Positions 36,158-47,921 of a DNA stretch of 64,000 bases are shown one piece after another. Position 1 is the stretch's first letter, and each line of letters starts with the position of its first letter. Under the pieces are notes generated by a model. The model worked only from the letters and a program-made list of their open reading frames with translations, was not told where the DNA came from and made no database searches. Source of the stretch: Streptomyces sp. NBC_00190 (lineage in GTDB: Bacteria > Actinomycetota > Actinomycetes > Streptomycetales > Streptomycetaceae); assembly GCF_036203305.1 (NCBI RefSeq), contig NZ_CP108131.1, positions 1,860,001-1,924,000 of the forward strand, written 5' to 3'. The translations under genes were made by a program, and so were the position numbers.

Positions 36158-37126
36158 TCAGACCTGTTCCCCGTACCCCGCGAGTGCCTCCCGGGCCGCG
36201 CTGCGCGCACTGTCCGCCAGCTCCACGGGAGTGACGATCCGCCCCTCGCGCCCCAGCCGCAGCGCGAGCCGGCGGAGCGAGGCCGGGTCCGGGCTGCGCA
36301 GCGTGATCCGCAAGCCCCCCTCGGCCAGTTCCTCGGCCCTGTCGTGCGGGTAGTACTCGGCGACCCAGCGCCCGCCGGGACCCACCTCGACCACGACCTC
36401 CGGATCCTCGGCGGCCGGCTGGACCAGACCCTCGGACAGGTCGCGCGGCTCGATGGCGGGCGGCTCGGCCCGCTCGTCCAGCAGCCTGATCTCCGCCACC
36501 CGGTCCAGCCGGAAGGTGCGCCGCGCCTCGGAGAGGTGGCACCACCCCTCCATGTACGTGTGCCCCACCGCGAAGAGCCGGATCGGGTCGACCTTGCGCT
36601 CGGTGAGCTCGTCCCGCGCCGGCGAGTAGTAGCGCACCCACACCCGGCGGCGCTCCGCGATGGCCCGGTCGACGTCCGCGAAGACCCCGCCCTCGGACTC
36701 GAAGGTCACCGACAGCCGGGAGCTGGCCCCGGCGGCCTCGCCCGCCGCGGCCTCCAGCTTGGCGGTCGCCCGCAGCAGGGCGTCCCGGTCGCTCTCGCGC
36801 AGCCCGGGCAGGGTCGCCACCGCGCGGGCCGCGACGAGCAGCGCGGTCGCCTCGTCGGCGGCGAGCCGCAGCGGCTCCGCGGTGGACTCCCCCGAGGCGT
36901 CGGGGTTGCGCCACCAGATGCGCTCCCCGTCGGTGTCGATGTCGAGCAGGTCCCCGCCCCGGAAGCTGGTCCCGCACATGGGCAGCACGTCGAGGTCCGA
37001 GATCAGCTCGTCCTCGGTGATCCCGAAGGCGCGCGCGACGTCGGCGACGTGCGCGCCCGGGCGCTCACGCAGGTACGTGACCAGGGACAGCATCCGGCGG
37101 GTCTGGTCGATGGCGTTGGCAGCCAT
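36158..37126 (-). CDS. pafC: WYL-domain transcriptional regulator PafC
   Basis: 322 residues. N-terminal winged HTH (MLSLVTYLRERPGAHVADVARAF-type, about 12-60) is followed by the WYL domain, about 145-220 (RRRVWVRYYSPARDELTERK, EGWCHLSEARRTFRLDRV), and the WCX C-terminal extension. Together with PafB it forms the PafBC activator, which in mycobacteria induces most DNA-repair genes independently of LexA/RecA, probably sensing single-stranded DNA. pafB lies 75 bp upstream. PafBC is named for its association with pafA but is not required for pupylation. Confidence 0.95.
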   Translation of the reverse strand: MAANAIDQTRRMLSLVTYLRERPGAHVADVARAFGITEDELISDLDVLPMCGTSFRGGDLLDIDTDGERIWWRNPDASGESTAEPLRLAADEATALLVAARAVATLPGLRESDRDALLRATAKLEAAAGEAAGASSRLSVTFESEGGVFADVDRAIAERRRVWVRYYSPARDELTERKVDPIRLFAVGHTYMEGWCHLSEARRTFRLDRVAEIRLLDERAEPPAIEPRDLSEGLVQPAAEDPEVVVEVGPGGRWVAEYYPHDRAEELAEGGLRITLRSPDPASLRRLALRLGREGRIVTPVELADSARSAAREALAGYGEQV

Positions 37127-37157
37127 GCTGGTACGTCTCCCCCTCAGGGCGTTGCTA

Positions 37158-37205
37158 CTGATGTTCCGGGCCGCTGATGTCCAGGGCCGCTGATCTCCGG
37201 GTCAG
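37158..37205 (-). repeat. Three 16-bp imperfect tandem repeats between pafB and pafC
   Basis: CTGATGTTCCGGGCCG, CTGATGTCCAGGGCCG and CTGATCTCCGGGTCAG follow one another without gaps, with the last covering the pafB stop codon. The 16-bp period is not a multiple of three, so the repeats are not a coding duplication. Confidence 0.7.
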
Positions 37206-38158
37206 CCCTTGGCGACGGCGCGCAGCCGGTCCACCACGTCCGCCCGCAGGTCGGCCGGCTCCAGCACCACGACATCCGGGCCGAACTCCACCAGCCAGGC
37301 GTCCAGCCCGTGCCCGTACGGGATCTCCAGCTCGTCCCAGCCGTCGCCGCCCTCACGCACGGCGGTGGCCTTGGCCCGCAGCGGGTAGCCGGCGCCGGCC
37401 CGCAGCCGGATGCGCGCGGAGCGGTCCGCGCTCTCCCCGGCCCAGCTCGCCACGGTCTCCCGCACGGTCACCACGTCCGGCACCTCGGCGGTGTACTTGG
37501 CGGCGCGGGAGCGCACCTTGCCGGTGATCCGCGAGAGCCGGAACACCCGCTCCGCCCCGCGGTCCCGGTCGAAGCCGGCCAAGTACCAGTGGCCGCGCCA
37601 GCACTCCAGCGCCCACGGCTCCACCTGCCGGGTCTCGGGCCGGGCGGCCGTGGACTTGCGGTAGTCGAAGACCACCGGCCGGCGGTCCCGGCAGGCCAGC
37701 ATCAGCGGCTCGAAGGCCGCCTCGTGGACCGGGATGCGCGGCTCGATGGCACTGTGCTGACCCTCGTACGGGTCACCCGCCTCCGGCATCCCGCCGGCGC
37801 GCAGCTTCTGCAGGGCGCCGCTGGCCGCGCCCGCGAGGCGGGCCTGCTGCCAGACCTTGGCGGCGAGCCCCAGCGCCGCGGCCTCCTCGGCGTCCAGGGA
37901 GACGGGCGGAAGCCGGTTGCTGTCCCGGCGGGCCAGATAGCCGGTTTCGCCCTCCAGGTTCTCCACCGTCTCGATGACCAGGCCGAGTTCACGCAGATCG
38001 TCCTTGTCCCGCTCGAACATGCGGTTGAAGGACTCGTCGTTGCCGGCTTCCAGGTAGGCCTCGATGGAACCGCGCAACTCGCGCTTGCTGAGCGGCCGGC
38101 GGGTCCCCAGCAGACACAGCGCCAGATTCATCAGCCGCTCGGCCTTGGCAATCGCCAT
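37202..38158 (-). CDS. pafB: WYL-domain transcriptional regulator PafB
   Basis: 318 residues from ATG 38158 (MAIAKAERLMNLALCLLGT). The HTH is in the first ~60 residues (RRPLSKRELRGSIEAYLEAG). The WYL domain is at about 150-215 (CRDRRPVVFDYRKSTAARPE, CWRGHWYLAGFDRDRGAERV) and a WCX domain follows. It pairs with PafC encoded downstream. Unlike the tightly overlapping pairs in some genomes, here a 75-bp gap filled with tandem repeats separates them. A strong hairpin upstream isolates pafB from the FKBP gene, so it should have its own promoter in 38159-38234. Confidence 0.95.
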   Translation of the reverse strand: MAIAKAERLMNLALCLLGTRRPLSKRELRGSIEAYLEAGNDESFNRMFERDKDDLRELGLVIETVENLEGETGYLARRDSNRLPPVSLDAEEAAALGLAAKVWQQARLAGAASGALQKLRAGGMPEAGDPYEGQHSAIEPRIPVHEAAFEPLMLACRDRRPVVFDYRKSTAARPETRQVEPWALECWRGHWYLAGFDRDRGAERVFRLSRITGKVRSRAAKYTAEVPDVVTVRETVASWAGESADRSARIRLRAGAGYPLRAKATAVREGGDGWDELEIPYGHGLDAWLVEFGPDVVVLEPADLRADVVDRLRAVAKG

Positions 38159-38234
38159 CGACGCCGTTCCCCCGCTCTCGACACACACACTCGTGACCGT
38201 TGACCGTACCGCCCCGGCGGGCCCGGACAAAAGC

Positions 38235-38266
38235 GAGGGGCCCCCGCCGGACGGCGGGGGCCCCTC
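38235..38266 (-). terminator. Terminator between the FKBP gene and pafB
   Basis: A 15-bp GC stem (GAGGGGCCCCCGCCG with its complement) starts 21 bp after the FKBP stop; the loop is formed by the last paired GCC-GGAC-GGC. Confidence 0.85.
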
Positions 38267-38287
38267 CACTGATCGCGGATGCGCGGA

Positions 38288-41318: not shown

Positions 41319-42581
41319 TCAGCCCTCCGACCGGACCCCGGACGACACCTCACCCACCCCGCCCGACGACCCCTCAGCCGAACCCGCCACCGCGCGACTG
41401 CGGCCCGCAGTTGCCATCACCCGCTGAGTGACCGTCAGCACCAGCAGCGCCGCACCCCCGGCCGCACTCGCCACGCCGAAGCTCGCCGCCGTACCGCCCA
41501 GCTCCACCGCCGGCCCCGCGACCGCCGTACCGATCGCCGCACCCACCCCGAAGAACGTCACCAGCCAGGAGAACGCCTCCGTCACCGTGCCCGCCGGAGC
41601 ATGCCGGTCCACGACGATGAACGCACACGCGAGCGCGGGCGCCAGGAACACCCCCGAGAGCGCCGCGAGCGCCGTCATCGCCACCGGCCCCGGCGTCAGC
41701 ATCAACGGCAGGTAACAGACCGCCAGCAGCGCCACCAGCATCCGCAGCCGCCGTTCCGGCGCACCCGCCCACCGCCGGGCACCGTAGAACACCCCGCCGA
41801 TCAGAGCGCCCAGCCCCAGCGCCGCCATCAGCCAGCCGTACACCGCCTGGTTCCCGTGATCATCCGCGTACGCCACACCCGCCACCGTGATCGAACCCAG
41901 CGCCGTCCCCACGAAGAAGAACGCACCGAGCAGCGCCAGCAGACCCGGCGAACGCAGCGCGCCCAGCCAGTGCGCCTCACGCGGCGCCGACCGCCACCGC
42001 CGGGAGGGCTCGCTCACCACGACGGACAGCGCGCCCAGCACACCGATCGCGTTGAGCGCCAGCAGCGCCCCGGCCGGCGACCACAGCGCCACGAACAGCG
42101 TCACGAGCAGCGGACCCACCGTGAACATGACCTCCTGGGCCACCGCGTCCATCGCGTACGCGGCGTGCACCCGCTCCTCCTTGCCGCCCAGCACGCCCGG
42201 CCACAGCGCCCGCAGCCCGCCCTCCAGCGGCGGCGTGAACAGCCCCGCGACCACCACCGCGGCATACGCGGCGACCGCCGCCCCGGTACCGGACACCGCC
42301 AGCCACACCATGCCCAGCGCGGAGACCACCGCGGCCGGCAGCTGCACCCGGGGCTGCCCGTACACGTCCACCGCCCGGCCCAGCAACGGCTGGCCCACCG
42401 CGTTCGCCAGCCCGTACGCGGCGGCCAGCGCGCCCGCGAGGCTGTAGCTGCCGCCCTCCGCCCGCGTGAACAGCACGATCGCGATCGGCGCCGTGGCATT
42501 GGGCAGCCGACCTACGAGCGTGCCCACCAGCAGCCTCGCGGCGTGCCGGGTCCTGAGCAGCTCCGCGTATCCCGCGGCCAT
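41319..42581 (-). CDS. MFS transporter
   Basis: 420 residues from ATG 42581 (MAAGYAELLRTRHAARLLVG). Twelve hydrophobic segments are readable, with the inner loop GQPLLGRAVDVYGQPRVQLP after helix 2 characteristic of MFS drug or sugar exporters. The last ~30 residues are a cytoplasmic tail. The divergent LacI-type regulator and the shared operator-like TACGTA pair suggest inducible expression. Substrate unknown. Confidence 0.92.
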   Translation of the reverse strand: MAAGYAELLRTRHAARLLVGTLVGRLPNATAPIAIVLFTRAEGGSYSLAGALAAAYGLANAVGQPLLGRAVDVYGQPRVQLPAAVVSALGMVWLAVSGTGAAVAAYAAVVVAGLFTPPLEGGLRALWPGVLGGKEERVHAAYAMDAVAQEVMFTVGPLLVTLFVALWSPAGALLALNAIGVLGALSVVVSEPSRRWRSAPREAHWLGALRSPGLLALLGAFFFVGTALGSITVAGVAYADDHGNQAVYGWLMAALGLGALIGGVFYGARRWAGAPERRLRMLVALLAVCYLPLMLTPGPVAMTALAALSGVFLAPALACAFIVVDRHAPAGTVTEAFSWLVTFFGVGAAIGTAVAGPAVELGGTAASFGVASAAGGAALLVLTVTQRVMATAGRSRAVAGSAEGSSGGVGEVSSGVRSEG

Positions 42582-42616
42582 GTCCGCCCCCTTCTGCCCG
42601 GATCCAGCCGGGGTAA

Positions 42617-42643
42617 TACGTATAACGCGACCCGTCATACGTA
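42617..42643. promoter_or_regulatory. Paired TACGTA elements, candidate LacI-family operator
   Basis: TACGTA at 42617-42622 and 42638-42643 are exactly 21 bp apart, two helical turns. The first extends to the 8-bp palindrome ATACGTAT. They are 36-62 bp before the MFS start and 85-111 bp before the LacI gene start, in a short AT-richer island. Confidence 0.55.
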
Positions 42644-42727
42644 CCATGGCGACAGTTGACAGGTCCACCCACCGGACCGCACCAGCCGCACCAACCCCCT
42701 CCGACCTCGCACTTCAAGGAGCCCCGT

Positions 42728-43726
42728 GTGACGAGACCCACCAGCCGCGACGTGGCCACCGCCGCAGGGGTCTCCCAGGCCACCGTCTCCCTCGTCCTCG
42801 GCGACAAATGGCGCGGCCGCGTCTCCGAACGCACCGCCACCCACGTCCGCGAGACCGCCACCCACCTCGGCTACCGGCCCAACCTCGCCGCCCGCAACCT
42901 CCGCCTCGGCACCACCCGCACCGCCCTCCTCGTCGTCCCCGCCCTCACCAACGAGTTCTTCGCCCGCGTCTACACCGGCGCCGCCCGCATCGCCGCGGAA
43001 CACGACTTCGGCGTCGTCCTCTACCCCTCCCCCGACGGCACCGGCCCCGCCCGCGACCCCTTCGCCTCCGCCCGCGCCGCCCTCGACGGAGTCATCGCCT
43101 CCTCCATGGCCGCCGACGCACTCGACGCACTCGGCGGCGACGGCCTCCCCCTCGTCATGCTCGACAGCGACCCCACCGCCGGCAGCGCCGACGCCCACGT
43201 CAACCTCGCCATCGCCGACGGCATGCGCCAGGTCACCGAACACCTCCTCGCCCTCGGCCACCACCGCATCCTCCACCTCGCCTCCGCCATCGACACCTGG
43301 ACCTTCCAGGTCCGCGCCGAAGCCCTGGCCGCCCTCCTGGGGCCCGGAGCCGAGCTGCGCACCGTCCGGGCCCCCCTCAGCGTGGAAGGCGCCCGTACGG
43401 CCGCGGAAACCGCCCTGACGGCACCCGGAGCCCCACCCACCGCCGTCATCTGCGACGACGACATCCTCGCCGCCGGCGCCTGCAAGGCCGCCCGCCGCCT
43501 GGGCCTGCGCATCCCCGACGACCTCTCCGTCACCGGCTTCGACGACCTCGCCCTGGCCACCGCCGTCGAACCCGAACTCACCACCGTCCGCCTCCCCGCC
43601 GAACGCGTCGGAGAACAGGGCATGACCGCCCTCCTCGCCGTCCTCGACAACACCCCCTGGACCGCCCCCGACCTCCCCGTCGAACTCGTCGTCCGCGCCT
43701 CCTCGGGCCCCGCCCCCACCCCCTGA
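42728..43726 (+). CDS. LacI-family transcriptional regulator
   Basis: 332 residues from GTG 42728, with AAGGAG 6 nt upstream. The HTH-hinge region is TSRDVATAAGVSQATVSLVLG ... LGYRPNLAARNL, from residue 4 to about 58. The periplasmic-binding-like domain follows (LLVVPALTNEFFARVYTGAA, ICDDDILAAGACKAARRLG). Its direct target is probably the divergent MFS exporter. The gene is strongly C-rich at third positions, in keeping with the neighbours. A terminator lies between it and prcA. Confidence 0.93.
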   Translation: MTRPTSRDVATAAGVSQATVSLVLGDKWRGRVSERTATHVRETATHLGYRPNLAARNLRLGTTRTALLVVPALTNEFFARVYTGAARIAAEHDFGVVLYPSPDGTGPARDPFASARAALDGVIASSMAADALDALGGDGLPLVMLDSDPTAGSADAHVNLAIADGMRQVTEHLLALGHHRILHLASAIDTWTFQVRAEALAALLGPGAELRTVRAPLSVEGARTAAETALTAPGAPPTAVICDDDILAAGACKAARRLGLRIPDDLSVTGFDDLALATAVEPELTTVRLPAERVGEQGMTALLAVLDNTPWTAPDLPVELVVRASSGPAPTP

Positions 43727-43786: not shown

Positions 43787-44551
43787 CTACTCGGCGTCGT
43801 CCTCCGGCGCCTCGTCGTTCGACACGGCATCCGCCTGAGCCGCCGCTGGCACATCCGCCTCCAGCAACCGCGCCAGCTGCCGGCCGCGGATCCGCTTGAA
43901 CTTCCGCTGCTGCGCCCGCGTCCGGTCCAGGACCGCCACCTCCAGCCGCTCGGCCGGAATCGTCTTGTCCGCACTGTTCGCCTGGCTGGACAGCGCCTGC
44001 ACCGCCAGCTTCAGCGCCTCCGACAGGGTCATCCCGTCCTGGTGCCGCTGATCCAGGAAGGTGCTGATCTGCTCCGCGTTGCCGCCGACCGCGACCGAGC
44101 CGTGCTCGTCCACGATCGACCCGTCGTGCGGCAGCCGGTAGATCTGGTCCCCGGCGGCCGTCGCACCGACCTCGGCGACGACCAGCTCCACCTCGTACGG
44201 CTTCTCACCGGCACTCGAGAAGATCGTGCCCAGCGTCTGCGCGTACACGTTCGCCAGCCCGCGGGCCGTCACGTCATCGCGGTCGTAGGTGTACCCCCGC
44301 AGATCCGCGTAGCGCACACCGCCGATCCGCAGGTTCTCGTACTCGTTGTACTTGCCGGCGGCCGCGAAGCCGATCCGGTCGTAGATCTCGCTGAACTTGT
44401 GCAGGGCACGCGACGGGTTCTCACCGACGAACACGATGCCGTCGGCGTACTGCAGCACGACAAGGCTGCGACCGCGGGCGATGCCCTTCCGGGCGTATTC
44501 CGCCCGGTCGGCCATGGCCTGCTGGGGTGACACATAGAACGGAGTCGACAC
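43787..44551 (-). CDS. prcA: 20S proteasome alpha subunit
   Basis: 254 residues from GTG 44551. The N-terminal gate and alpha-type helix ([20 protein letters not shown]) and the [20 protein letters not shown] strand are typical. No nucleophilic Thr is present, as expected. Alpha rings cap the 20S core and control entry. The acidic C-terminal tail ([16 protein letters not shown]) is an actinobacterial feature. It lies 46 bp after prcB; both belong to the pup operon. Confidence 0.98.
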
Positions 44552-44597
44552 CGGCTGTCCGTCCCTTTCTTCTGGGCTCCTGAGGGGCGACGGATGG

Positions 44598-45437
44598 TCA
44601 GAGCAGGGCGGCGCGCGGGCCGTCGGGCTGCTCCAGCCGACGATTGGTGACCGTACGGGCGAGTTCCTGCGACTCGTCGTCCGTCAGCCTGCGGAATCCC
44701 TCGTCCGTGATGACGGTGACGATCGGATAGATGTGGCGGTACAGGTCCGGCCCACCGGTCGCCGAGTCGTCGTCGGCGGCGTCGTACAGCGCCTGCACGA
44801 CCAGTGTGGTGGCCTGCTCCTCCGTCAGATCGGGCCGGAAGAGCTTCTTCATCGATCCCCGGGCGAAGATCGAACCCGATCCGGTGGCGGCGTACCCGTG
44901 CTCCTCGGAGCGGCCGCCGGTCACGTCGTAGGAGAAGATCCGGCCCTTCTCCTTGGCCTCGTCGTACCCGGCGAAGAGCGGTACGACGGCCAGCCCCTGC
45001 ATCGCCATGCCCAGATTGCTCCGGATCATGGTGGACAGACGGTTCGCCTTGCCCTCCAGGGAGAGGGTCGTGCCCTCCACCTTCTCGAAGTGCTCCAGCT
45101 CCAGCTGGAACAGCTTCACCATCTCCACGGCCAGACCGGCCGTACCGGCGATGCCCACCGCGGAGTACTCGTCGGCCGGGAACACCTTCTCGATGTCCCG
45201 CTGCGCGATCATGTTCCCCATGGTCGCCCGCCGGTCACCGGCGAGCACGACCCCGCCGGGGAAGGTGGCGGCGACGATGGTCGTCCCGTGCGGCGCCTCG
45301 ACGACACCCTCCGGCAGCTTGCGGTTGCCGGGCAGCATCTCGGGCGAGTGCGCGCCCAGGAAGTCCATGAAGGACGAGGACCCCGGCGTCAGGAAGGCTG
45401 CCGGTAGACGCCCTGTGCCACGATTGTTGGCTTCCAC
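44598..45437 (-). CDS. prcB: 20S proteasome beta subunit
   Basis: 279 residues from GTG 45437, which has GGAGGG seven bases upstream. The propeptide runs to Gly51; cleavage exposes Thr52 of [21 protein letters not shown], the catalytic N-terminal nucleophile. The Asp and Lys partners of the Ntn mechanism are in GDRRAT and further on. An open frame extends 29 codons upstream into the endonuclease gene, but the ribosome-binding site supports this start. The reading frames of prcB and the endonuclease gene overlap by 49 bp. Confidence 0.98.
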
Positions 45438-45982
45438 GCGTTTCCCTCCAGGTATGAGATGGCCCGCTGGATGGTGCCGGGATCGTCTCCCAACAGTCCG
45501 ATAGCCGTATTGCAGTTGAAGCACAGTACGCCACGGACCCTACCCGTCTCGTGGCAGTGATCCACATGCGCAGCCGGAGCCTTTAGGCAGATGCAGCAGA
45601 GCCCGCCCTGAGCTGCGATCATTTCGTCACGTTGGGCTTCGGTGATGCCATAGACCCTCTTGAGGTGTCCGATCCGACCGTCGACGACACGGCACGACTT
45701 GCAACGCGTCGCCAAACCATCGACGGCTGATTTATTGCGGTGCCACTCGGAGTGCGGCTTCACCTCACCACACCCGAGGCAGCACTTATAGCCGTCTCCC
45801 GCGGTCGGCCTGGGCTGCCTGCCCATTGCCTCCTCGCGCTTCCGGTGAGACTCGGCACCGCAATCACGGCAATGCCGTTGCAATCCGTCCAGATTCGCTC
45901 GCTTGGGAGCGAACTCCCGATGCGGCTTCTCCTCACCGCATCGGGTGCATCGCTTCGTTCGTCCCCACTCGACCGAGTCCAC
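45389..45982 (-). CDS. Predicted recombination endonuclease VII inside the proteasome operon
   Basis: About 197 residues from GTG 45982 (AAGG 5 nt upstream); TTG 45994 would add four. The protein has two similar N-terminal zinc-ribbon-like units ([13 protein letters not shown] ... CRDCG and [13 protein letters not shown] ... CKSCR), then a C-terminal treble-clef nuclease of T4 endonuclease VII type ([27 protein letters not shown]). T4 endonuclease VII resolves branched DNA. The gene lies 30 bp after pup and overlaps prcB by 49 bp, so it must be translated with the proteasome. It is conserved at this locus in S. coelicolor by recollection, but its role is not characterised to my knowledge. Codon usage is less GC-biased than in its neighbours. 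Confidence 0.88.
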
Positions 45983-46012
45983 ATGAACCTTCAAATCGAA
46001 GGCAAACTGACC

Positions 46013-46225
46013 CTACTGGCCACCCTTTTGAACGAAGGACCGCACGAAGTCCTCGGCATTTTCCTCGAGTACATCGTCAATCTCGTCAAGTACGGAGTCG
46101 ACGTCGTCGGAGAGCTTTTCCTGGCGCTCCTTGAGGTCGGTCGATTCCTCGACCGCCGCCTCCTCGACCTCCTCGGTCGAGCGCGTCGCCTTCTGCTGTC
46201 CGCCGCCGGTGTCCTTGGTCGCCAT
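46013..46225 (-). CDS. pup: Prokaryotic ubiquitin-like protein Pup
   Basis: 70 residues from ATG 46225 with GAGGTAG upstream. The first half is disordered and charged (MATKDTGGGQQKATRSTEE), the second forms the helix bound by Arc (LKERQEKLSDDVDSVLDEID). It ends VQKGGQ; the terminal Gln must be deamidated to Glu by Dop before PafA can attach it. It heads the operon pup-endonuclease-prcB-prcA. Confidence 0.98.
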   Translation of the reverse strand: MATKDTGGGQQKATRSTEEVEEAAVEESTDLKERQEKLSDDVDSVLDEIDDVLEENAEDFVRSFVQKGGQ

Positions 46226-46305
46226 GTCTACCTCACCCCGCTCGGTTCGCACGCTCATGTCGAGAGACCCCGGGATTCGGGATCTCTCAAGATCAGACCC
46301 TACGC

Positions 46306-46325
46306 AGGACCCTACTAGGAGGGTC
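46306..46325. promoter_or_regulatory. 7-bp inverted repeat upstream of pup
   Basis: GGACCCT-ACTAGG-AGGGTCC lies 81 bp before pup in the 184-bp dop-pup gap. Two TAGGGT-type hexamers on the minus strand resemble Streptomyces -10 elements, so this is probably the pup promoter region. A weaker GGGGCC/GGCCCC hairpin (46381-46398) just after dop could be its terminator. Confidence 0.45.
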
Positions 46326-46409
46326 CGACATTCGTCCCCGCACTTTCATAACGTCCGGTCTTTCCCATGATTCCCGGACCGGGGCCCTTTCAGGCCCCGA
46401 AAGCACCGC

Positions 46410-47921
46410 TCACCGCCCCGAAAGCACCCGCACCAGGTCCTCCGCCGTCCGGCAGCGGTCCAGGAGCTCCTTGACGTGGGCCCGCGTGCCCCGCAGCGGC
46501 TCCAGCGTCGGGACCCGCTGGAGCGAGTCGTGGCCGGGGAGGTCGAAGATCACCGAGTCCCAGGAGGCCGCGGCCACGTCGTCCGCGTACTGCTCCAGGC
46601 ACCGGCCGCGGAAGTACGCCCGGGTGTCCTCCGGCGGCTTGCTCGCCGCCCGCTCCACCGCCGGCTCCTCCACCAGCGTCTGCATCTTGCCGCGGGCCAC
46701 CAGGCGGTTGTACAGGCCCTTCTCCGGCCGTACGTCCGAGTACTGGAGGTCCACCAGGTGCAGTCGCGCCGCGTCCCAGCCCAGCCCGTCCCGGCGCCGG
46801 TAGCCCTCCAGGATCTCCCGCTTGGCGATCCAGTCCAGCTCCCCCGACAGGCTCATCGGGTCGCTCTCCAGCCGGCCCAGCACGTCCTCCCAGCGGGCCA
46901 GCACATCGGTTGTCTGCTCGTCCGCGTCGGAGCCGAAACGCTCCTCCACGTACTTCCTGGCGAGCTCGAAGTACTCCATCTGAAGTTGTACGGCGGTCAG
47001 TGTCCGGCCGCTGCGCAGCGTAATCAGGTGCTGCAGGTCCGGGTCGTGGGAGACCTGGTGCAGGGTGCGCACCGGCTGGTCGACGGCCAGGTCGACGTTG
47101 ATGAACCCGTCCTCGATCATGGACAGGACCAGTGCCGTCGTGCCCAGCTTGAGGTACGTGGAGATCTCGGACAGGTTCGCGTCGCCGATGATCACGTGCA
47201 GTCGGCGGTACTTCTCGGCGTCCGAGTGGGGTTCGTCCCGGGTGTTGATGATGGGCCGCTTCAGGGTGGTCTCCAGGCCGACCTCGACCTCGAAGTAGTC
47301 CGCCCGCTGGCTGATCTGGAAGCCGTGCTCGCGGCCGTCCTGGCCGATGCCCACGCGGCCCGCGCCGGTGACGACCTGGCGCGAGACGAAGAAGGGGGTC
47401 AGGTGGCGCACGATGTCCGAGAAAGGGGTCTCCCGCTTCATCAGGTAGTTCTCGTGCGTGCCGTAGGAGGCGCCCTTGTTGTCGGTGTTGTTCTTGTAGA
47501 GGTGGATCGGCTGGGCGCCGGGGAGCTGGGCCGCCCGGACGGCCGCCTCGGCCATGATCCGCTCGCCGGCCTTGTCCCAGAGCACGGCGTCGAGCGGACT
47601 GGTGACCTCCGGCGAGCTGTACTCGGGGTGGGCGTGGTCGACGTAGAGCCGTGCGCCGTTCGTGAGGATGACGTTGGCGAGGCCGATGTCCTCGTCGGTC
47701 AGCTGGCTGTTGTCGGCGGCCTCGCGGGCGAGGTCGAAGCCGCGGGCGTCCCGCAGCGGATTCTCCTCCTCGAAGTCCCAGCGGGCGCGTCGCGCCCGGT
47801 GCATCGCCGCCGCGTAGGCGTTGACGATCTGGGACGAGGTGAGCATGGCATTGGCGTTCGGGTGCCCCGGGACGGAGATCCCGTACTCCGTCTCGATCCC
47901 CATTACTCGCCGTACGGTCAT
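46410..47921 (-). CDS. dop: Deamidase/depupylase Dop
   Basis: 503 residues from ATG 47921 with AAGGAGG upstream. It is a paralogue of Paf[59 protein letters not shown] and [20 protein letters not shown] mirror the PafA motifs. Residues 36-85 contain the extra loop (Dop-loop region) that marks Dop over PafA. The enzyme deamidates the C-terminal Gln of Pup and also removes Pup from proteins. It precedes pup in transcription direction and is downstream of arc. Confidence 0.97.

Follow-up and report, generated by a model that had tools for sequence, protein, structure and literature searches.

An EndoVII-domain nuclease gene lodged between pup and prcB in Actinomycetes: a candidate homing-type element with promoter-like active-site codons

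What is a nuclease gene doing inside the operon of the Pup-proteasome system, and what keeps it there? The question is raised by a stretch of 64,000 nucleotides (nt) from Streptomyces sp. NBC_00190 (contig NZ_CP108131.1, positions 1,860,001 to 1,924,000; hereafter the window), in which an open reading frame (ORF) with an EndoVII domain separates pup from the proteasome beta-subunit gene prcB. An earlier note, made from the sequence of the window, had taken this gene for a branched-DNA nuclease synthesized with the proteasome, possibly a regulated repair factor. Comparison of the locus among genomes shows a fixed place, exchange of the nuclease between lineages, repeated decay, conservation of catalytic residues and constraint on the prcB leader. 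The best explanation, in which our confidence is no more than even, is a free-standing homing-type EndoVII/Hpy99I (DHHRN) nuclease at pup-prcB, which would cut DNA and home or otherwise bias its inheritance, and whose active-site codons would have been co-opted as a proteasome promoter. The window locus serves as reference, and residue and codon numbers below follow it. Its central features are:

45389..45994, minus strand: EndoVII-domain nuclease ORF, 201 amino acids from TTG 45994 or 198 from GTG 45982
45824..45955, minus strand: zinc ribbon or beta4-alpha repeat 1 (residues 14-57), the most divergent among the folded parts compared
45686..45796, minus strand: zinc ribbon or beta4-alpha repeat 2 (residues 67-103), resembling the Hpy99I repeat
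45446..45667, minus strand: Endonuclease_7 beta-beta-alpha-Me domain (residues 110-183) with D145, H146, H148, R154 and N162, a PF02945 match
44598..45437, minus strand: prcB (proteasome beta), GTG start at 45437, TIGR03690, its first 49 nt lying within the nuclease ORF
46013..46258, minus strand: pup, start at 46258 or 46225, a PF05639 match

The geometry described in the earlier note, a gene wedged between pup (30 bp from the GTG start) and prcB (49-bp overlap), is confirmed: the pup stop lies 18 nt from the TTG or 30 nt from the GTG start of the nuclease, and 148 of 152 full-length loci show the same 49-nt overlap with prcB. The interval given there, 45389..46225, does hold the nuclease ORF but also contains pup. 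Equally sound was the description of paired zinc ribbons, present as two CxxC..CxxC units (C16/C19/C42/C45 and C72/C75/C98/C101), with an intact nuclease site. The PF02945 match at residues 110-183 (E 5e-25, 87.6 bits against a curated cut-off of 23.6) is the single one in the whole window genome, and the protein also matches PHROG endonuclease VII families. G+C content at third codon positions is 0.71 in the nuclease gene compared with 0.82 in pup, 0.90 in prcB, 0.92 in prcA and 0.95 in dop, and with 0.82-0.97 over pup, dop, prcA, prcB, pafA, arc and pafB/C. The weaker codon bias noted before is therefore real, and its hint of past acquisition is borne out. Sequence conservation drops sharply at the pup stop codon. 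A scan of positions 44400-46500 with Rfam gave no match at E 0.1, and PADLOC gave nothing beyond a restriction-enzyme profile.

The place of the gene recurs throughout. All 109 other loci found by nuclease similarity, some of which may be one genome present in two collections, have pup upstream and prcB downstream. Of 295 genomes of the genus, 217 contain a nuclease match at E 1e-10, many of these being fragments, and 294 contain PrcB. Homologues of the protein are on record for S. venezuelae and S. avermitilis. A profile search of 246 class genomes yielded 56 with a match, 36 of them outside the genus; in the 29 of these 36 whose loci were read, representing ten families, the nuclease adjoins pup and/or prcB without exception. 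Both flanks are visible in 25 of the 29, three loci (L315, L321, L332) reach a contig end, and in L334 pup and the nuclease are present with no prcB within 3.5 kb. In families f9 and f14 the nuclease frame usually ends before prcB. Among 30 loci from other Streptomycetaceae genera, full-length frames occur in some of g3, g5, g7, g8 and g13, the rest being remnants or short gaps. No nuclease was found in ten outgroup loci (L242-L251), nor in five of eight extra loci (L335-L342), L340-L342 giving a weak C-terminal match of 14-17 bits. An origin by insertion at the base of the Streptomycetaceae, an idea that rested on the ten outgroup loci and on single-sequence BLAST, was withdrawn because, by the profile search and the fetched loci, ten other families also have the gene between pup and prcB.

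Family f18 provided two further observations. In other genera of this family (L336-L340 and L251), pup-prcB spacers of ~280-570 nt contain no recognisable nuclease, apart from a C-terminal match of 14 bits in L340, and are possibly long-decayed copies. In genus g80, one long frame carries two EndoVII domains in five of the five genomes read (L314, L316, L319, L324, L325), the second covering profile positions from ~60-107 to 179-196. Re-invasion by an intact copy ahead of a remnant was considered for these tandem matches and rejected, since in each of the five loci the two share their first stop codon.

Fixed as the place is, its occupancy varies. Decay was scored in a non-random sample of 150 genus genomes comprising the window, 29 loci chosen as best nuclease matches and hence biased towards intact copies, 100 PrcB-anchored regions from the highest-listed PrcB matches, and 20 more genus genomes. 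The nuclease is intact in 79 of them, decayed in 51 and missing in 20, an empty locus being defined by a pup-prcB gap of at most 170 nt. Mapped onto the pup+prcB tree, the intact and lost states require at least 28 changes, 19 of which are forced by starred branches. Among 25 genomes whose PrcB is 93-100% identical (window included), 8 are decayed.

Where the gene is intact, its history departs from that of its neighbours. The proportion of synonymous differences (pS) saturates at different levels in the nuclease and prcB because codon bias differs, and therefore pup was used as a second yardstick and tree tests were added. Between the window and 17 relatives, pS is 0.13-0.24 in prcB and 0.06-0.35 in pup, compared with 0.53-0.69 in the nuclease, whose protein identity is 52-71%. 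In L099, for instance, the values are 0.19, 0.06 and 0.69 (52% amino acid identity), and in L112 they are 0.23, 0.22 and 0.62 (53%); L032, which has a short ORF and stands outside this comparison, carries a nuclease 93% identical to that of the window. Across 9316 pairs from 137 loci, nuclease pS has a median of 0.50-0.59 in each prcB class from 0.05 to 0.6, and of four pairs with prcB pS below 0.05, two are identical and two reach a nuclease pS of 0.53-0.60. The window clade, 21 genomes named from prcB pS alone, takes 2 changes on the pup+prcB tree versus 6 (5 forced) on the nuclease tree (approximately unbiased (AU) test, p 0.002), and the discrepancy holds for codons 10-110 (p-AU 2e-50) and for codons 120-185 (p 7e-4). 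Identity in pup and prcB is 0.93 within this clade and 0.82-0.83 to other genomes; the corresponding values are 0.50 and 0.49 for nuclease codons 10-35, and 0.80 and 0.72 for codons 111-130, where the advantage of the clade is largest.

An exchange can be delimited in L107 and L082, which lie close together on the flank tree and have nucleases in different groups. The L107 nuclease groups with those of L155/L186/L196 (support 98, starred) and that of L082 with those of L072/L163/L171/L148 (support 80, unstarred), and the flanks reject each group as a whole (p 2e-64 and 2e-5, respectively). Scanned in 90-nt windows, the similarity of the two loci is 0.83-0.95 as far as the pup stop, 0.57-0.66 over spacer nt 1-450, 0.90-0.99 over nt 451-630, and 0.74-0.90 in prcB; the exchanged piece therefore starts at the pup stop and reaches to about codon 135, immediately ahead of the active-site segment. 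Mosaics within the gene are visible too, two C-terminal types being joined to several N-terminal types. On the nuclease tree of the class, L214 and L223 (Streptomycetaceae) and L299 (f14) fall among foreign families with moderate support, which suggests occasional wide transfers.

Despite decay and exchange, intact copies retain their catalytic equipment. D145, H146 and N162 are kept in all 153 aligned full-length copies and H148 in 152, D145, H146, H148, R154 and N162 are invariant in the 45-row alignment A2, and the core zinc cysteines are kept in 76-79 of 79 copies. The ratio of non-synonymous to synonymous substitution rates (dN/dS) is 0.19 overall in 69 pairs with a nuclease pS of 0.02-0.35, compared with 0.11 for prcB; within the nuclease, it is 0.11-0.13 for the second ribbon and the core, 0.22 for the first ribbon and 0.31 for the linker.

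At the 3' end, conservation extends to the DNA itself. Two elements of the window are concerned:

45536..45563, minus strand: promoter-like element GGATCAC-N11-GGGTAGGGTC, within active-site codons 145-153
45443..45449, minus strand: likely prcB Shine-Dalgarno sequence GGAGGGA, within codons of the YLEG motif (residues 181-184)

Synonymous sites hardly vary in codons 150-160 (pS 0.037, compared with 0.32-0.38 upstream and 0.15 in codons 161-180). These codons form the pattern GGAT-N14-GGGTANGGTC, still present in reduced loci that have lost their coding capacity. Glycine 151 is encoded by GGT in 152 of 152 copies, valine 153 by GTC in 152 of 153, glycine 155 by GGC in 149 of 149 and valine 156 by GTA in 147 of 152. 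Residue 152 is AGG in all 118 copies with arginine, a codon used for only 232 of 2491 arginines before codon 120. Across Streptomycetaceae, GGGTANGG occurs in 140/152 full, 60/66 remnant and 25/27 empty loci, the 12 full loci without the exact form having near-matches. Upstream of it, GGAT is found in 125/140 full, 51/60 remnant and 24/25 empty loci, compared with 4-5% in shuffles preserving composition only, and its spacing is 14 nt in 125/125 full and 48/51 remnant loci and 15 nt in 20/24 empty ones. In loci without a frame, the element stands at a variable distance of 41-111 nt from prcB, so that coding does not account for it. The 8.9-Mb window genome has a single exact match to the pattern. 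In 61 genus genomes the pattern occurs 43 times, in 42 genomes, and its reverse not at all; 30 of these 43 places are listed prcB or nuclease places, one (G042:C10) lies elsewhere, and 12 are without a comparable listing. The likely Shine-Dalgarno sequence, GGAGGGA in the window and GGAAGGA in most relatives, stands 5 nt before the prcB start. Decay spares this end of the gene: dead copies are trimmed towards the leader and rarely lose it.

The last ~110-150 nt of the nuclease gene are thus under constraint in Streptomycetaceae. According to PMC8346170, SigB-homologue promoters of S. coelicolor have a weak GNNT at -35 and a -10 with GGG first and A in fifth position, a form with which GGAT-N14/15-GGGTA is compatible. 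We read the element in the active-site codons as the prcB promoter, and its conservation within the nuclease frame points to transcription of prcBA in its own right. In other families, the glycine codon at the same place is GGC by eye (L296, L311, L316, L324).

Two observations concern prcB expression elsewhere. In the empty loci L132, L133 and L135-L138, a GC-rich hairpin lies immediately behind pup, closely followed by the promoter-like element, and resembles a terminator ahead of an independent prcB promoter. By eye, TAGGGT-like sites after the nuclease stop and just upstream of prcB were seen in L298, L300 and L323 (f9), L303 (f40), and L310 and L330 (f14), where prcB may also have its own promoter.

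Comparison with known systems places the protein nearer Hpy99I (profile comparison, E 9e-14) than T4 endonuclease VII (E 2e-9). Among the Foldseek matches listed (best 50 of 108), those with E<0.001 are Hpy99I chains only; T4 endonuclease VII is neither among these 50 nor among the 50 listed VIA-align matches, which is no proof of its absence. With the type II restriction endonuclease Hpy99I (3fc3, 3gox), the protein shares zinc repeats followed by a beta-beta-alpha-Me domain, whereas its gene has pup and prcB as immediate neighbours and no adjoining methylase (a distant one is possible), and the domain placement of the nuclease model differs (TM-score 0.18). Likeness to the resolvase T4 endonuclease VII (gp49) is confined to the catalytic core (profile positions 115-168): the Endo VII motif is N-terminal in T4 and C-terminal here (residues 110-183), and no whole-length alignment is obtained. 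According to PMC6083498, most members of the homing/restriction clade have the Endo VII motif at their C-terminus, and F-CphI and the DHHRN homing endonucleases (cyanophage S-PM2) resemble the present protein in this C-terminal motif, in D-H-H-R-N and in a gene outside an intron. The present gene differs in residing on a bacterial chromosome, at a locus without Rfam match, and is likened to F-CphI by description, not by F-CphI sequence. It shares with the DHHRN homing class a single site, sporadic presence and exchange between genomes. The free-standing homing endonucleases seg and mob of T4 are likewise intergenic genes, and PMC2988022 discusses a gain-and-loss life cycle for homing endonucleases; in contrast to the present gene, seg and mob are phage-borne GIY-YIG or HNH enzymes for which flank co-conversion is known, while here it is not evident.

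Phage EndoVII proteins of Studiervirinae (Escherichia ECA2, Yersinia vB_Yep_9) are ~45% identical over residues 56-185, and the ECA2 gene is similarly wedged, with overlaps, between endopeptidase and packaging genes; these are phage genes, shorter and without the promoter-like codons. In cyanophage Cy-LDV1 (L283), a free-standing EndoVII gene lies two genes from a separately annotated Holliday junction resolvase, and because of this annotation the EndoVII is probably not the resolvase. A literature search found no title on the Streptomyces gene; its coverage of Streptomyces pupylation is incomplete and a prior description is possible. In the text accessible, PMC12451607 names only a phage endonuclease VII, and SCO1644 is named in two papers, one of them PMC5069765.

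Taken as a homing-type nuclease, the protein would bind DNA by its two zinc repeats, and the C-terminal beta-beta-alpha-Me domain would cut alleles that lack the gene or carry another allele. Donor-templated repair would then insert the gene at this position again; to judge from the joints observed, one junction would fall within pup or directly behind it, the other within the conserved active-site/leader segment or within prcB. Its home would be the interval between the conserved pup 3' end and the prcB start, which most hosts possess. Copies would decay, and recombination through pup and the common leader would bring in replacements. The terminal ~110-150 nt would, in Streptomycetaceae, be host-owned, the active-site codons acting as a promoter-like element and the YLEG codons as likely prcB ribosome-binding site; dead copies would shrink to the leader because it had become an expression signal of prcB. 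More tentatively, and with somewhat more doubt than belief, we propose that a selfish homing nuclease colonised pup-prcB across Actinomycetes and became hard to erase in Streptomycetaceae, where its catalytic codons would be the proteasome promoter and its C-terminal codons the ribosome-binding site and part of the prcB frame.

Several results weigh against a homing-type nuclease with a co-opted promoter. No pup or prcB co-conversion is evident beside the exchanged part in L082 and L107, though these events may be old; this counts against homing, because homing should give flank co-conversion. The groups of L107 and L082 were, moreover, named after the nuclease tree had been seen. No near-identical nuclease copies in distant genomes were found among the 9316 pairs, and at prcB pS 0.10-0.15 nuclease pS spans 0.03-0.70, so that some closely related pairs do have the same allele. 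At the level of the class, nucleases group for the most part by family (9 label changes versus a minimum of 8), and the gene therefore behaves over long times mostly as a vertical resident. Full-length frames exist that lack H148 (L073) or one zinc cysteine (L095, L148), and a dN/dS of 0.19 is equally expected of a useful host gene. The promoter-like element fits two sigma-factor types; its TANGGT also fits a -10 of the form TANNNT. Among 13 phage or plasmid EndoVII genes, a weak control, lysine or arginine stands at the corresponding position in only 3, and GGT-ARG-GTC in none of these 3. Finally, trees of this kind would also be expected from a defence nuclease under balancing selection.

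Such a host defence nuclease, for example a modification-dependent, type IV-like restriction enzyme that some strains discard and whose many old alleles stay in circulation and are swapped by homologous recombination in the flanks with no homing, we regard as unlikely, since it leaves the pup-prcB place in ten further families unexplained and has pup and prcB rather than a methylase as immediate neighbours, defence genes farther away not having been searched for. Less likely still is a neutral relic, an ancient insertion in decay, reshuffled by ordinary homologous recombination and partly kept only because its 3' end drives prcB: decay that retains the 3' end and joints within conserved segments agree with it, but purifying selection acts on all measured parts of intact copies (dN/dS 0.11-0.31), and the catalytic residues survive in almost every one of these copies. 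The frozen active-site DNA might also be the target of the nuclease itself, or a gene-conversion hot spot, rather than a promoter. This appears improbable: although the exchange joint of L082/L107 adjoins the frozen DNA and the window genome has the exact pattern nowhere else, the element persists in ORF-less loci 41-111 nt from prcB with its two-block spacing kept, and a target within the gene would presumably be cut in its carrier.

Very improbable, in our view, is a vertically inherited repair or recombination factor co-expressed with the proteasome, which comes closest to the reading in the earlier note. The proteasome-operon location in eleven families, the conserved catalytic residues and the family-wise clustering over the class would suit it, yet 71 of the 150 genomes have no intact copy, trees reject common descent with pup and prcB inside the genus, and the nuclease is nearer Hpy99I than the T4 resolvase. 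Sporadic presence, which that note had itself set against a repair factor, is thus what was found, with 71 loci decayed or empty and the many changes described above. Its branched-DNA activity fares no better, the protein being nearer the sequence-specific Hpy99I by profile and Foldseek, with a C-terminal motif as in the homing/restriction clade, and the promoter-like element inside the gene speaks for separate prcBA transcription instead of a synthesis tied to the proteasome. The observation of the gene is confirmed, its interpretation is partly supported, and the repair factor is not favoured.

Further genes in the surroundings of the locus are:

43787..44551, minus strand: prcA (proteasome alpha), assigned from gene order and sequence
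46410..47921, minus strand: dop-like gene upstream of pup, start approximate, by eye
36158-38269: PafB/PafC-like ORFs, by eye
41319-43726: MFS transporter-like gene (minus strand) and LacI-type regulator (plus strand), between prcA and pafA, by eye

If a homing-type nuclease with co-opted active-site codons is indeed what resides here, many actinobacterial proteasome operons would carry a resident mobile nuclease that moves from species to species while keeping to one site, and DNA encoding the active site of an enzyme would underlie host regulation. Deletions or comparisons of prcBA or pup in Streptomyces may then disturb the shared leader. More generally, the locus would make it testable how a selfish gene becomes entrenched once the host uses part of its coding sequence as a promoter.
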